Origin: a virus
DNA: 29,008 nucleotides
Direction: 5' to 3' (one strand)
Virus record (IMG/VR): IMGVR_UViG_3300036772_000559
Span: 1-29,008 of that record
In this document: in pieces, positions 1-20,821 of the stretch
How positions within the stretch are numbered: position 1 is the first letter of the stretch
Layout: every line of letters starts with the position of its first letter
Position numbers and translations under genes: made by a program
Notes under the pieces: generated by a model
The model's database searches: none
What the model was told of the DNA's origin: nothing
What the model saw: the letters and a program-made list of their open reading frames with translations, nothing else

Positions 1-519
1 TTACAGCAGGGCGTCCATTTCCAGCAGGATTTGCTCGCACCACTGTTGCAGGCGCTCTTCGGTGAGATCAAACTGATTTACATCGTCGAGTGCCAGTCCG
101 ACGAAATGTTTGCCATCGGCACTTAGCGGTTTCGGGCTGGTAAATTCAAAGCCTTCAGTCGGCCAGAAACCGATAAAGCGAACTCCCAGCGGCACCAGCT
201 GATGGTAAAGCATCCCAAGCGCGTCGAGGAACCATTCGCCGTAGCCGAGCTGGTCGCCCATACCGTACATGGCAACAATTTTGCCGCGTAATTTAAGCGT
301 AGGAAGTTGATTCCAGACGGCTTCCCAGTCTTCCTGAATTTCGCCGAAATCCCATGTCGGGATGCCGAGGATCAGGATGCTGTAGTCTTCCATCACATCA
401 GGATCAACATCTTTAATGTTGTGCAAATCAACCAGTTCTTCGCCCAAAATGTCGCGAATTTTTTCCGCAGCCATTTCGGTGTAACAGGTGCTGGAACCGT
501 AAAAAAGTCCGATTTTCAT
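1..519 (-). CDS. fldB: Flavodoxin 2 (FldB)
   Basis: This is a 172-residue short-chain flavodoxin, a soluble FMN electron carrier of the cytoplasm. The FMN phosphate loop is the GSSTCYT segment at residues 8-14. The two isoalloxazine loops are PTWDFGE at about 54-60 and [11 protein letters not shown] at 86-96. The length and near-identity around these loops match enterobacterial FldB. The start codon is supported by an AAGG ribosome binding site about six bases upstream. In E. coli fldB is adjacent and divergent to xerD; here int lies 64 bases upstream on the same strand, so the prophage occupies the 5' flank of the gene. The native promoter is probably displaced to the far prophage end, and int transcripts could read into fldB. 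It is the only clearly chromosomal gene in the window. Confidence 0.96.
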
Positions 520-15338: not shown

Positions 15339-16466
15339 ATGGCGTGGCCAACGGTCGATGTAAATCAGGTCAATCAGCTACAGGGTGAAACAAACGAGAT
15401 TGAGCGCGTGTTGCTCTATGTCGGTACGGGGACAATCAACGCCGGTAAGACGCTGGCGGTGAATACCCAAAGTGATTTTGATGCGCTGCTGGGCGCACAA
15501 GACAGCGTTTTAAAAAGCAACGTGAACGCGGCCATGCTTAACGCCGGATCCAACTGGAGCGGTTACGTGCATGTGCTGGCAGAGGATGCCGGGGAAAATG
15601 CCTGGGTGGATGCGGTGCTGGCCGCACAATCCCTTTGCTCTGTTGAGGGTGTGGTGCTGCTGGACGATATCGCCACGAAAACGCCCATCAACAAAGCGGC
15701 GGAGCTGCGTGCCAAATTACTGGCCAGTTATTCCCGCTGGAACTGGTTCATCCTTTCCGTGCAGGCACCGCAGGCCGAGGAAGATTGGGCGGAATATTTG
15801 GTACGTATGGTGGCCTTACAGGATCAGATTTCTGCCCCGTCCGTGCAGCTTGTGCCGCGTTTGTTTGGCAATGAGCCTGGCGTGCTGGCTGGCCGTCTGT
15901 GCAGCCATGCGGTGACTATTGCTGACAGTCCGGCGCGGGTAAAAACCGGGGCGCTGGTGTCGTTAGGCAGTGATGAAATGCCGGTAGATGGCACCGGCGC
16001 GGCGCTGGAACTTGCAACCTTGCAAGCGTTGCAGGCGCAGCGTTTTAGCGTGCCGATGTGGTACGCAGATTATGACGGGTATTACTGGGCGGATGGGCTG
16101 ACGCTGGATGCGGAGGGCGGTGATTACCAGGCCATTGAGTACCTGCGTATTGCCGATAAAGCCGCACGTCGCGTGCGTTTGCAGGCGATTGCGAAGATTG
16201 GGGATCGTTCATTAAACAGCACGCCGTCCAGCATCGCCGCCAACCAGGCATATTTTGCCAAGGTGCTGCGTGAAATGTCGATTTCAAGCCAGATTAACGG
16301 CATCACCTTCCCCGGCGAAGTCAAACCGCCGCAGGATGATGATGTGACGATCACTTGGCTTTCAGCCACCAAAGTGGCGGTGTATATCGTGATCCGTCCA
16401 TATGAATGCCCGAAAGGCATCACGGTGAGCTTGTTGCTGGACACCAGCCTGACAGGGAGTAATTAA
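15339..16466 (+). CDS. Tail sheath protein (DUF2586 type)
   Basis: The 375-residue protein corresponds in size and position to the contractile sheath of HP1-type phages (DUF2586), distinct in sequence from P2 FI. It begins MAWPTVDVNQVNQLQGETNEIER, and the last third has YADYDGYYWADGLTLDAEGGDYQAIEYLRI followed by a C-terminal beta segment (VAVYIVIRPYECPKGITVSLLLDTSL), typical of sheath proteins that donate strands between subunits. A GGGAAG box precedes the ATG. The tube gene follows after two bases. Confidence 0.9.
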   Translation: MAWPTVDVNQVNQLQGETNEIERVLLYVGTGTINAGKTLAVNTQSDFDALLGAQDSVLKSNVNAAMLNAGSNWSGYVHVLAEDAGENAWVDAVLAAQSLCSVEGVVLLDDIATKTPINKAAELRAKLLASYSRWNWFILSVQAPQAEEDWAEYLVRMVALQDQISAPSVQLVPRLFGNEPGVLAGRLCSHAVTIADSPARVKTGALVSLGSDEMPVDGTGAALELATLQALQAQRFSVPMWYADYDGYYWADGLTLDAEGGDYQAIEYLRIADKAARRVRLQAIAKIGDRSLNSTPSSIAANQAYFAKVLREMSISSQINGITFPGEVKPPQDDDVTITWLSATKVAVYIVIRPYECPKGITVSLLLDTSLTGSN

Positions 16467-16468
16467 CG

Positions 16469-16921
16469 ATGAAACGTATTTCAGGCCAGTCCACCGATGT
16501 GCGTATTGACGGTGACCTGGTTCACATTGAAAAGGTCAGTTTAGATATCACTGACAACACGGCGGCCGCGCAGACCCAGGGTGTACCTGATGGTCACGTG
16601 TCAGGGGATGTGGCGGCCGAGGGGGAAATTGAAATCACCTCCAAAGTGCTTACGCAGCTGACCGCCATTGCACGCCGTGCTGGTTCGTGGCGTGGGATTG
16701 ACCCGGTGGATCTGATGTTCTATGCCAAGGCCGGTAATGAAGAACTGAAGATTGAAGCCTTTGGCTGCAAGCTGGTGTTGAGCAACGTGCTCGATAATGA
16801 TCCGAAGGGGGGCAGCACGCTGAGCCATAAAATTAAGTACATGGTCACTAGCCCGCAGTTTGTGCGCATTAACGGCGTGCCGTATCTGGAAGATGAAGAT
16901 ACCCGCAACCTGATCGGATAA
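16469..16921 (+). CDS. Tail tube protein (DUF2597 type)
   Basis: The 150-residue protein directly follows the sheath gene, as the tube gene does in contractile-tailed phages, and matches the DUF2597 type of HP1-like phages. Marks are MKRISGQSTDVRIDGDLVHIEK at the start, an alternating beta pattern through the middle, and HKIKYMVTSPQFVRINGVPYLEDEDT near the end. It would form the inner channel for DNA. There are no membrane or signal segments. Confidence 0.9.
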   Translation: MKRISGQSTDVRIDGDLVHIEKVSLDITDNTAAAQTQGVPDGHVSGDVAAEGEIEITSKVLTQLTAIARRAGSWRGIDPVDLMFYAKAGNEELKIEAFGCKLVLSNVLDNDPKGGSTLSHKIKYMVTSPQFVRINGVPYLEDEDTRNLIG

Positions 16922-17569: not shown

Positions 17570-17940
17570 TGGGCAAGCCGCTGGTGATTGCCGTCCTGGC
17601 GTTGTTAGCTGCGTTCGCAGCGGGCTGGAAGGTAAATGCCTGGTACAGCGATAGCGTGGAATTGATGATCAGTAATGCCGCACACGCGGCGGGGGAAGCC
17701 TCCCGCGTGGCCGGTGAGAAGGTGGCCAGTGAATCCGGCCGCAAGCTGGAAAATACATTGGAGGCACTGCGAAATGCGCAACCTGTGGAAATCCGCACGG
17801 AAATACTTAAACCGGTTTTTACTAACGAGTGTTTGTCTCCTGAGCTTGTCAGCATGTACAACGCCGCTGCCGACAAAGCCGAACGTGCCTTATCAGGAAA
17901 ATCTGTTAACCAAATGCCCGGTAAAACTCCCCCGCATTAA
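17566..17940 (+). CDS. Rz-like inner-membrane spanin
   Basis: The 124-residue protein has an N-terminal membrane segment (PLVIAVLALLAAFAAGWKVNAWY, about 5-27) and a helical periplasmic part (about 40-75) ending in a Pro-rich tail, the usual i-spanin layout. Together with the outer-membrane partner encoded in the overlapping frame it would fuse inner and outer membrane in the last step of lysis. It starts inside the endolysin stop (ATGATG), so either of two adjacent ATGs can serve. Confidence 0.85.
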   Translation: MMGKPLVIAVLALLAAFAAGWKVNAWYSDSVELMISNAAHAAGEASRVAGEKVASESGRKLENTLEALRNAQPVEIRTEILKPVFTNECLSPELVSMYNAAADKAERALSGKSVNQMPGKTPPH

Positions 17941-18064
17941 TGGGATAACGGGCAAAGACATTACCGAACCTTTATTAATACTGACGCCGCAATATTCAGA
18001 CTGTGCGGCACGTCATAATCAATTAGTCGATGAAATAAACCAACGGAAGGAAATAAAACAATGA
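17774..18064 (+). CDS. Rz1-like outer-membrane spanin lipoprotein
   Basis: In the +1 frame relative to Rz, a 96-residue protein starts at an ATG with GGAGG nine bases upstream. It has a basic N-terminus, a hydrophobic segment and a lipobox LSAC with the modified Cys28, followed by a Pro-rich part (TTPLPTKPNVP), all typical of Rz1. About 57% of it overlaps the Rz gene and the rest runs 124 bases beyond the Rz stop, so this is an overlapping rather than a fully embedded pair. An upstream ATG at 17675 would destroy the signal peptide. The stop overlaps the tail chaperone start (ATGA). Confidence 0.9.
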   Translation: MRNLWKSARKYLNRFLLTSVCLLSLSACTTPLPTKPNVPYQENLLTKCPVKLPRINGITGKDITEPLLILTPQYSDCAARHNQLVDEINQRKEIKQ

Positions 18065-18318
18065 GCAAAATTACTATGGCTGTAAACGGCACCGCACTGA
18101 CCTTCGAACCTAACGCCACCGCCTACAATAAATTCATTAACGAAATGTCGATGGATAATAAAGTGGCACCGGCAAATAACTACCTGCGCCGTATTGTTCA
18201 CGTTGAATGCAAAGAAGCGCTGGATACCATTTTGGATATCCCCGGTTCTGCCCTGCAAATTTGCAGTTTCGTAAATGACCAGTTCGCGCCGAAATTAGAG
18301 ATTGAACTAAAAAACTAA
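18061..18318 (+). CDS. Tail assembly chaperone, short form (gpG/gpE-like)
   Basis: This 85-residue protein lies between the lysis cassette and the tape measure gene, where most long-tailed phages encode chaperones that coat the tape measure during tail assembly. Its sequence (MAVNGTALTFEPNATAYNKFINEM, then a helical middle) fits small HP1-like tail chaperones. The last codons CTA AAA AAC TAA contain a slippery heptamer, so a share of ribosomes should continue into the next frame. The short form ends at TAA 18316-18318. It contains no membrane segment. Confidence 0.85.
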   Translation: MSKITMAVNGTALTFEPNATAYNKFINEMSMDNKVAPANNYLRRIVHVECKEALDTILDIPGSALQICSFVNDQFAPKLEIELKN

Positions 18319-18506
18319 CGGCGCGGGTACGCGCAATTGAAAATAATGGGCTGGAACAATATCTGATTTTGCGCCGCCATTATTTACCGCATGAAAATGA
18401 CGATCCCGAAAACTTAGCCCGCGCCGTGTGGCTGGATAACAGGCATTGGGAGAATCAACGCATAGCTGTAGCAAATGGCATTGCCCTGGCATTTAAAGGC
18501 GAATAA
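18061..18506 (+). CDS. Tail assembly chaperone, -1 frameshift fusion (gpGT/E+E'-like)
   Basis: If ribosomes slip back one base on A AAA AAC at 18309-18315, translation continues at CTA 18315 for 63 further codons to TAA 18504-18506. The fusion is about 148 residues. The extension (LTARVRAIENNGLEQYLIL, RRHYLPHENDDPENLARAVW, LDNRHWENQRIAVANG and on) has no good start codon of its own and fills the whole gap up to the tape measure ATG, with which its stop overlaps (TAATG). This is the arrangement of lambda G/GT and P2 E/E'. The two-product ratio usually matters for tail assembly. Confidence 0.82.
18309..18334 (+). promoter_or_regulatory. Programmed -1 ribosomal frameshift signal
   Basis: The heptamer A AAA AAC (18309-18315) is in the correct phase for two-tRNA slippage. 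After a 5-base spacer that includes the zero-frame stop comes a hairpin GCGCG-GGTA-CGCGC (18321-18334) with five GC pairs. Heptamer, spacer and stem all fit the known -1 signal layout. Confidence 0.85.
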
Positions 18507-20821
18507 TGGCTGATTTAGATTTCACACTCAGTTTAATTGACAACATGACGCGCCCCCTTCGCCAGGTGCAATCCTCTGTAAGCGGGTTCGCCCAGGAAAG
18601 TACGGCCGCCTTTGGTCGGGTGGCCATCGGTGCGGCGGCGTTGTGGGGCGTGGGGGCATCCATTAAGGCCGCATTGGATCCGGCCATTCAGATGTTTGAC
18701 GCCATGCAGGAAGCCAGCGCACGCGGCATTAATGATGATGCGCTGGCTAAGGTCACGGACGACGCCCTGAGATTCAGCGTGCGCTACGGGGAATCGGCGG
18801 TGGAGTTCGTTAAATCCTCTGCGGATATCAACGCGGCCGTGGCCGGGCTAACGAATGCCGAATTGCCCCGCATTACCGTGGTGGCCAATACCGCCGCCAA
18901 GGCGTTGAAAAGCACGGCCGGGGAAGCGTCGGAATTCATGGGGCAGATGTTTACCCAGTTCAGCGGCTACGCGGCCGAGGTGGGCAAAGTGCAGTTCGCG
19001 GAAGAACTGGCGGGCAAAATGGCCTACATGAAAAACCAGTTCGGCACGGACATGGCCACCATTAAAGACCTGATGGAAGGGGCGCGGGGTGTCGGTTCCA
19101 ACTATGGCGTAGGGATGGATGAACAGCTGGCCGTCCTGGGTGAGTTGCAGCGTTCATTAGGCACGGAAGCGAGCGGTTCTTATGAGGGATTCCTGAGCGG
19201 TGCCGCAGCCGGTGCGCAAAAGTTGGGGCTGAGTTTCCAGGATGCCCAGGGAAAAATGCTGTCCATGCCTGCCATGCTGGAAAAACTCCAGGGCAAATAC
19301 GGTAAGAGTATCGAGGGCAATCTCAAGGCACAGGGCGAATTAGATGCCGCCTTTGGTGACAGCGCGGCCGTGATTAAACAGCTTTACGGCAACGTTGATA
19401 TGCTGAAACGCAATATCACCGAGCTGGGCAGCAATGACGGCATGAAACGAGCCACGGAAATGGCCGAGAAAATGACCCGTCCCTGGGACAGGCTGACGGC
19501 GATCTGGTTCGCCATGCGTGCCGCCATCGGTTCCACGCTGTTGCCGGTGCTGTATCCGCTGGTGAATAAAATCGCGGACGGGGGCGAAAAACTGACGCGC
19601 TGGATGCGGCTGTTCCCCAACATTGCCCGCGTGATCGGTTATGCCACCGTGGCGTTACTGAGCTTTGCGGCCGTGGGGGCTATCGCCAATATTGTGATGG
19701 GCGTTCACGGGTTTGTGATGATGGGTGTTACGCGCCTGCTGGCACCGATGGCCAGGCTGTTAGGGCTTAACCGCCTGGCGATGGCAGCCAGTGATGCCGT
19801 GACGCAGTTATTCAGTGCCGGGTTGCGTGGCCTGCGTGCCACGTTGCTGGCCGCCAGTATTGCCGCCCGCATGGGTTCTGCCTCCTTCCTGCTGATGATT
19901 GCGCCGGTGGTGGCCATTGCGGCCGCTATTGCGGCGGTGGTCATTGCGGTGATCAAGTTCTGGCAGCCTATCAAAGCTTTTGTGAGCGGGTTTATCAGCG
20001 GGTTCGGCCAGGCGGCCGATGCGCTGACTCCTTTCAAAGGGCTGTTTTCCGGTATTGCCTGGGCAATTGGCTGGGTGTGGGACGGCGTAAAAACGTTGGT
20101 GGGCTGGTTCGGTGACCTGCTGACCCCGATCCAAATGACGGAAGGGCAACTGACTAACGTCACCAGCGCGGGCGAAACGTTCGGGCGGATTGTGGCGGCG
20201 GCTATCGGCATTATCCTGACGCCGTTTGAGCTGGTGTATCGGTCAATCACCACGATGATTGAAATGTTCGGGATCGTGCGTGCCGGTTGGGTTGATGTCG
20301 TCAAATCCTTTGATATCAATTCGCCCGTTCAGTCCTTTGAAAAGATTGCGCGGGTGATTGGGGACGTATTCGGCAAGCTGTGGGATGCACTGAAAACCTC
20401 GTTTACCGGGACGTACAACTGGATTGTTGAGAAGTTAAATAACATTCCCGGTGTCAATATCGAGCTGAAAGAAGTGCCTGTGTCGGTTACGCCAAAAGGT
20501 ATGCCACCGGCCAGCGCGATGCCTAACGCGGCGGCTTTAGCCGCAACGCCTGCGGGTGTGCCGCCAGGGTTTAGCGGGGTAGCGGGGCAAATCCCTGTTG
20601 CAGGCAATAAAATCACTGTACCGCAGCCGCCGCAGCCCATCGACAGCGAGATTCTGACGGGCGGAGTAGTTAAAGGTGTGGATCGTGGTGGTTTGAAAAA
20701 GGAAATCAATTCCAACGCGAAAACCTCAATTGATAACAGTAAACAAATCGGCCACGTCACTTTTAATATGAAAAATGGAATGACACCGGCCGAGCTAATG
20801 GAATGGCAGGAATTAAATTAA
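18506..20821 (+). CDS. Tail tape measure protein
   Basis: The 771-residue protein is near the size of P2 gpT (815) and sets tail length. The N-terminal half is helical and Ala/Gly-rich, with the phage tape-measure pattern (ASEFMGQMFTQFSGYAAEVGKVQF, KNQFGTDMATIKDLMEGARGVGSNYGVGMDEQLAVLGEL). Hydrophobic segments at about 376-400 and 458-484 are common in tape measures and may help DNA enter the inner membrane. The C-terminal 130 residues are Pro/Val-rich. It starts inside the stop of the frameshift extension (TAATG) and ends in the same way on the next gene. Confidence 0.93.
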   Translation: MADLDFTLSLIDNMTRPLRQVQSSVSGFAQESTAAFGRVAIGAAALWGVGASIKAALDPAIQMFDAMQEASARGINDDALAKVTDDALRFSVRYGESAVEFVKSSADINAAVAGLTNAELPRITVVANTAAKALKSTAGEASEFMGQMFTQFSGYAAEVGKVQFAEELAGKMAYMKNQFGTDMATIKDLMEGARGVGSNYGVGMDEQLAVLGELQRSLGTEASGSYEGFLSGAAAGAQKLGLSFQDAQGKMLSMPAMLEKLQGKYGKSIEGNLKAQGELDAAFGDSAAVIKQLYGNVDMLKRNITELGSNDGMKRATEMAEKMTRPWDRLTAIWFAMRAAIGSTLLPVLYPLVNKIADGGEKLTRWMRLFPNIARVIGYATVALLSFAAVGAIANIVMGVHGFVMMGVTRLLAPMARLLGLNRLAMAASDAVTQLFSAGLRGLRATLLAASIAARMGSASFLLMIAPVVAIAAAIAAVVIAVIKFWQPIKAFVSGFISGFGQAADALTPFKGLFSGIAWAIGWVWDGVKTLVGWFGDLLTPIQMTEGQLTNVTSAGETFGRIVAAAIGIILTPFELVYRSITTMIEMFGIVRAGWVDVVKSFDINSPVQSFEKIARVIGDVFGKLWDALKTSFTGTYNWIVEKLNNIPGVNIELKEVPVSVTPKGMPPASAMPNAAALAATPAGVPPGFSGVAGQIPVAGNKITVPQPPQPIDSEILTGGVVKGVDRGGLKKEINSNAKTSIDNSKQIGHVTFNMKNGMTPAELMEWQELN

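Follow-up and report, generated by a model that had tools for sequence, protein, structure and literature searches.

Gene order and the chaperone-tape measure junction

The window analysed here is the whole of a 29,008-nucleotide stretch of viral DNA (IMG/VR record IMGVR_UViG_3300036772_000559, positions 1 to 29,008). The features considered below were assigned as follows.

15339-16466, + strand: tail sheath, HP1-type (phrog_907 tail sheath, 3.8e-156; PF10758)
16469-16921, + strand: probable tail tube, HP1 Orf24 family (PF10772, 2.4e-61; phrog_1182 tail protein)
18061-18318, + strand: tail assembly chaperone TAC_10, short form, 85 aa, 0 frame (PF10963, 3e-32; phrog_1214; AlphaFold2 pLDDT 93)
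18309-18315, + strand: slippery heptamer A AAA AAC in X XXY YYZ phase; the last two 0-frame sense codons are AAA AAC
18316-18318, + strand: 0-frame stop TAA, with no base between heptamer and stop
18321-18334, + strand: hairpin GCGCG-GGTA-CGCGC, candidate frameshift stimulator (sequence, RNAfold)
18315-18506, + strand: -1 frame extension, 63 codons and stop TAA (18504-18506), open from CTA at 18315-18317 (PF21830; phrog_7050)
18369-18506, + strand: TTG ORF of 45 codons inside the extension (mechanical ORF), counterpart of a separately annotated DUF6890 protein
18506-20821, + strand: tail tape measure protein (PF10145, 1.1e-19; phrog_28, 7.7e-90)

The chaperone gene (18061-18318) precedes the tape measure gene, which starts at 18506, and is itself preceded by genes for the sheath, the HP1 Orf24-like tail protein, a holin and an endolysin, as genes are arranged in HP1-group Peduoviridae. 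The TAA of the extension (18504-18506) overlaps the ATG of the tape measure gene at 18506 (TAATG). The chaperone gene in turn begins with an ATG that shares bases with the TGA (ATGA) of an Rz1-like ORF upstream, for which a weak match to P2 Rz1 was found, and the genes thus look translationally coupled. The Rz1-like ORF (window positions 17675-18064) contains a lipobox-like CLLSLSAC stretch and runs beyond the Rz gene. At the left contig end, a flavodoxin-like ORF adjoins the integrase gene (window positions 1-519 and 584-1636) and probably belongs to host DNA flanking the prophage. This ORF, together with the nearest genome relatives (Rahnella and Ewingella), suggests that the window represents an Enterobacterales prophage, which may be defective.

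Positions 18290-18340 read CGAAATTAGAGATTGAA CTA AAA AAC TAA CG GCGCG GGTA CGCGC AATTG. The heptamer, which the initial annotation had placed in the right phase just before the stop, was confirmed to the base, and the same was true of the 5-base spacer (TAACG, 18316-18320), of the five-pair all-GC hairpin behind it (arms 18321-18325 and 18330-18334, loop GGTA 18326-18329; spacer and hairpin together, 18316-18334) and of the open 63-codon extension ending in the overlap with the tape measure gene. With RNAfold, the hairpin was present in both the MFE and the centroid structures of a 92-nt stretch, which was not unusually stable overall (z, -1.1). Fusion of the short form with the extension gives a predicted protein of 148 aa. 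The expectation that a standard gene caller would leave 18319-18505 empty was only partly true; the TTG ORF lies within this region, and PGAP lists the DUF6890 counterpart in E. coli prophages as a separate protein ('DUF6890 family protein'). The heptamer AAAAAAC alone is not rare (7 occurrences in the window vs 9.6 expected), so the strength of the finding lies in the conservation of the junction, which exceeds chance.

Protein families and conservation of the -1 frame

The short protein matched Phage_TAC_10 (PF10963) with 111.1 bits (curated cut-off, 25.7), and the extension matched DUF6890 (PF21830), a Pfam family without assigned function, with 97.9 bits (cut-off, 23.6; E, 2.7e-28). DUF6890 was found in only 2 of 369 genomes drawn from one class. 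The AlphaFold2 model of the short form (pLDDT 93) had as its best PDB match 3fgx (TM, 0.74; prob, 1.00; E, 0.008), which has been described as a phage tail assembly chaperone (PMC9603447) and which was also the top match for the short-form sequence profile, though a weak one (E, 0.14); several viral fold matches of the short form carry the name tail assembly chaperone as well. The extension was modelled as two helices, for which no convincing fold match and no solved relative were found. The protein families, the fold match of the short form and the position of the gene all agree with a two-form tail chaperone, the reading that had been put forward for this locus at the outset and that the homologues described below also support. 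On these comparisons, we regard the junction as very probably a site of programmed -1 ribosomal frameshifting in an HP1-like prophage of the Peduoviridae, from which such a chaperone would be made.

Relatives were drawn from named phages, genomes and viral contigs. In the first comparison, each of the 115 loci had the extension in the -1 frame (including HP1, HP2, K139, F108, phiO18P, ESSI-2 and PV94). A larger census comprised 513 loci, corresponding to 357 unique junctions (Pseudoalteromonas phage ACA1 lies outside this census), and an in-phase A6N heptamer was found at the same place, with the -1 extension kept, in 352 of the 357 (AAAAAAC in 209, AAAAAAA in 76 and AAAAAAG in 67). The heptamer and the open -1 frame, proposed earlier as the features by which homologues should be judged, are thus conserved across HP1-like phages. 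Nearly all extensions span 60-64 codons. The five junctions without the canonical heptamer (L349, AAAAATC; L013, AAAGAAA; L121; L261, one A missing; L510, insertion) retain the extension, and some of them may be decayed. In L121, which is the third DUF6890 copy of the Providencia genome that also carries L014, another sequence stands in place of the canonical heptamer (AATAAAGGAATAA), as is the case in L013 (Citrobacter; GTAAAGAAATAA); both loci have the chaperone, the -1 extension and the 0-frame stop at the same place, and either they are decayed or another slip motif is used. In two HP1-like prophage contigs (L231 and L232), the extension is 97% identical to the HP1 type and is broken by an indel, with 44 codons remaining.

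Synonymous codon choice at the junction was examined in 76 representatives (less than 85% identity; not fully independent of one another). The codon before AAA, which gives the first base of the heptamer, was GTA in 69 of the 76 (background, 11-19% of the Val codons nearby). The first -1 codon was CTA in 30 of 38 representatives with AAAAAAC (5% of Leu codons; CTG in the other eight) and ATA in 17 of 17 with AAAAAAA (11% of Ile codons), CTA and ATA being the codons that put a stop in the 0 frame. These two tests support selection acting on the nucleotides at the junction. Within the extension, differences fell on positions 1, 2 and 3 of the -1-frame codons at 25, 17 and 59%, a pattern of substitution from which the extension is read as evolving as a coding sequence in the -1 frame. 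Four-base Shine-Dalgarno-like motifs, considered as stimulators upstream of the heptamer, were not enriched, and no Rfam family was matched at its gathering score.

The two-form chaperone is favoured because independent starts, transcriptional slippage and decay fit these data worse. According to the first of these, the extension is a small independent DUF6890 gene with an internal start, next to which the heptamer is incidental; a separate CDS is given at this place in PGAP annotation and in several phage records, and the window has the TTG ORF at 18369. However, the called starts differ in place between records, 20 of the 76 representatives have no ATG, GTG or TTG within the first 35 codons of the extension, the conservation of the extension protein reaches back to the heptamer, and the heptamer and the frame are conserved together. 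The extension thus has no conserved start of its own, as had been noted for the window, and we consider an independent gene unlikely; the TTG ORF at 18369-18506 is probably not one. Slippage of RNA polymerase on the A run, which would place one extra A in some transcripts, would suit an A-rich site and the seven-A runs of the AAAAAAA group. Efficient transcriptional slippage generally needs longer runs, and every canonical junction has exactly six (AAAAAAC and AAAAAAG) or seven (AAAAAAA) A residues, never more, while the strict codon phase and the 3' structures fit ribosomal slippage; this explanation is less likely still. Finally, a frameshift mutation in a decaying prophage, in which the extension originally continued the reading frame of the chaperone gene, has next to no probability: the window is a prophage-like contig and some relatives have broken extensions (L231 and L232) or a lost A (L261), but as a general account decay is refuted by the presence of the same -1 junction in isolated phages (HP1, HP2, K139, F108, phiO18P and SI7) and across deep branches of the tree, and the third-position substitution bias and the lack of any in-frame fusion among the relatives also stand against it.

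The abutting stop and the downstream structures

Beyond what the initial annotation had described, the stop directly after the heptamer was found to be part of the conserved signal. All 285 junctions of the census that have AAAAAAC or AAAAAAA show the stop directly against the heptamer, and none of the 67 with AAAAAAG does; in these 67 it lies 21 nt downstream (66 junctions) or 36 nt downstream (one junction). Among the representatives with an abutting stop, at least 14 changes from one stop codon to another fall on the tree, and this turnover of the letters indicates that a stop as such is kept next to the heptamer. Stop adjacency itself changes once on the tree, and adjacency and the heptamer letter change together only this once, so the association between them carries no statistical weight there. 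The abutting stop was TAG in 66 of the 76 AAAAAAA junctions (L371, L363 and other Vibrio-type loci), a strong bias to the RF1-only stop.

For the structure analysis, the 40 nt after the heptamer were folded against codon-resampled controls. The mean folding z was approximately -1.6 for AAAAAAC, -3.3 for AAAAAAA and +0.4 for AAAAAAG, and the excess of structure peaked directly 3' of the heptamer, with no comparable excess in the other tested windows of the two ORFs. The particular 5-bp GC hairpin of the window is confined to its close relatives, in which all pairs were invariant in 15 distinct sequences, and it therefore gives no information on covariation. The ESSI2-like enteric phages have an 8-bp stem (97.5% paired), in which the pair 15/31 is GC in 28 sequences, AT in 25 and mispaired in 2 (n = 55), and the Vibrio and Pseudoalteromonas types carry other stems at the same place. 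The stem is not always needed, since the AAAAAAC members L103, L014 and L146 lack one.

In E. coli, A_AAA_AAC is a weak heptamer, and slippage occurs far more readily on A_AAA_AAG than on A_AAA_AAC or A_AAA_AAA (PMC5009743, PMC4066793). The order of structure and stop across AAAAAAC, AAAAAAA and AAAAAAG fits this published slipperiness: the weak heptamers have an abutting stop, usually with a hairpin, whereas the strong AAAAAAG has neither. The relatives offer a natural series within one gene family: AAAAAAG has neither abutting stop nor hairpin, AAAAAAC has the stop and often a hairpin, and AAAAAAA combines the stop with a strong hairpin. Along this series, the strength of the heptamer is traded against stop adjacency and stimulatory structure; because AAAAAAG forms a single clade, this trade-off rests on one contrast. 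A strict rule tying weak heptamers to an abutting stop is contradicted by phage ACA1. Its gp36/gp36a (OR438928) belong to the same HP1-type TAC family (PF10963), and its site differs from that of the window: the heptamer is A AAA AAA, the stop lies 21 nt further on, and a strong hairpin is lacking.

The abutting stop may compete with slippage and thereby determine the ratio of the two forms, it may cause a pause, or it may do no more than end the short form. When the HIV slippery sequence was tested in bacteria, frameshifting was reduced by a stop placed after the heptamer and disappeared with additional RF2 (PMC4373837), from which the abutting stop may limit slippage, not help it. The slip site set against a stop in nearly all relatives may help to set the ratio of the two forms.

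Proposed two-form chaperone and comparison with known systems

These comparisons give good support for a two-form chaperone like those of lambda (G/GT) and P2 (E/E'), and we infer the slippage, its rate and the binding roles of the two forms as follows. Most ribosomes would read CTA AAA AAC and terminate at the abutting TAA, which would yield the 85-aa chaperone. A minority would slip back by one base on A AAA AAC, with the Lys and Asn tRNAs re-pairing on AAA AAA. The downstream hairpin, and perhaps also a pause at the stop codon, would assist this step. These ribosomes would then read on in the -1 frame (CTA ACG GCG ...) and yield the 148-aa fusion, of which the C-terminal 63 residues are the DUF6890 part. 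By analogy with lambda G/GT, the tape measure protein encoded by the next gene would receive a coat of many short copies and a few long ones, and by analogy with lambda G/GT and P2 E/E' the C-terminal part of the long form would recruit tube subunits; its likely partner is the probable tail tube protein of the HP1 Orf24 family.

Phage P2 also belongs to the Peduoviridae, and its E / E+E' gene resembles the present one in lying between the tube and tape measure genes, in the -1 frameshift near the end of the short chaperone gene, in the overlap of the extension with the tape measure gene and in the size of the long form (142 aa, compared with the predicted 148 aa). E+E' is annotated and, according to the papers that cite the original work, experimentally supported (Christie et al. 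2002, as cited in PMC3931495 and PMC3091744). At the P2 site the heptamer is T TTT TTG and the stop lies 18 nt beyond it, whereas A AAA AAC here abuts the stop and is followed by a hairpin; no hairpin was reported for the P2 site (PMC3091744). The contrast with the P2 heptamer had been drawn beforehand and is right, since TTTTTTG was present in the P2 control. The chaperone protein families of P2 also differ from those found here, and the split between the tail modules of the two phage groups, P2 and HP1, is ancient (PMC10612066). Phage lambda likewise has a short chaperone and a -1 extended form (G/GT) before the tape measure gene, with G GGA AAG and the stop 15 nt downstream in place of A AAA AAC against the stop. 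IS1 has AAAAAAC, as here, but with the stop 15 nt downstream.

This kind of two-form chaperone is already known, and within the HP1-type family it is already annotated in ACA1, the record of which gives a projected programmed frameshift 'analogous to that in phage P2'; the frames were not joined in the other family records that we examined. A literature search found no paper on DUF6890. To our knowledge, it is new that DUF6890 is identified as a frameshift tail; the census is also new, as is the design in which the stop abuts the heptamer and the hairpins are exchangeable. These results give DUF6890 a likely role, that of the part added to the HP1-type tail chaperone by the -1 frameshift, and the gene model is corrected for a large group of prophages.

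A site layout with AAAAAAC directly before a stop was also found in virus families and hosts other than those of the HP1 group, namely Caulobacter phage phiCbK gp93/94 (annotated -1 frameshift, A AAA AAC followed by the stop TAA; L530, 1278-1287) and halovirus HCTV-2 40/41 (annotated -1 frameshift, A AAA AAC followed by the stop TGA; L533, 24643-24652). AAAAAAC has been reported for the tail chaperones of phiCbK (PMC3556154) and HCTV-2 (PMC5009743), and GGGAAAC/GGGAAAG sites have been reported for two other haloviruses. The layout of a heptamer directly followed by a stop codon is also shared with eukaryotic viruses (PMC4373837), in which the functions of the genes are unrelated.
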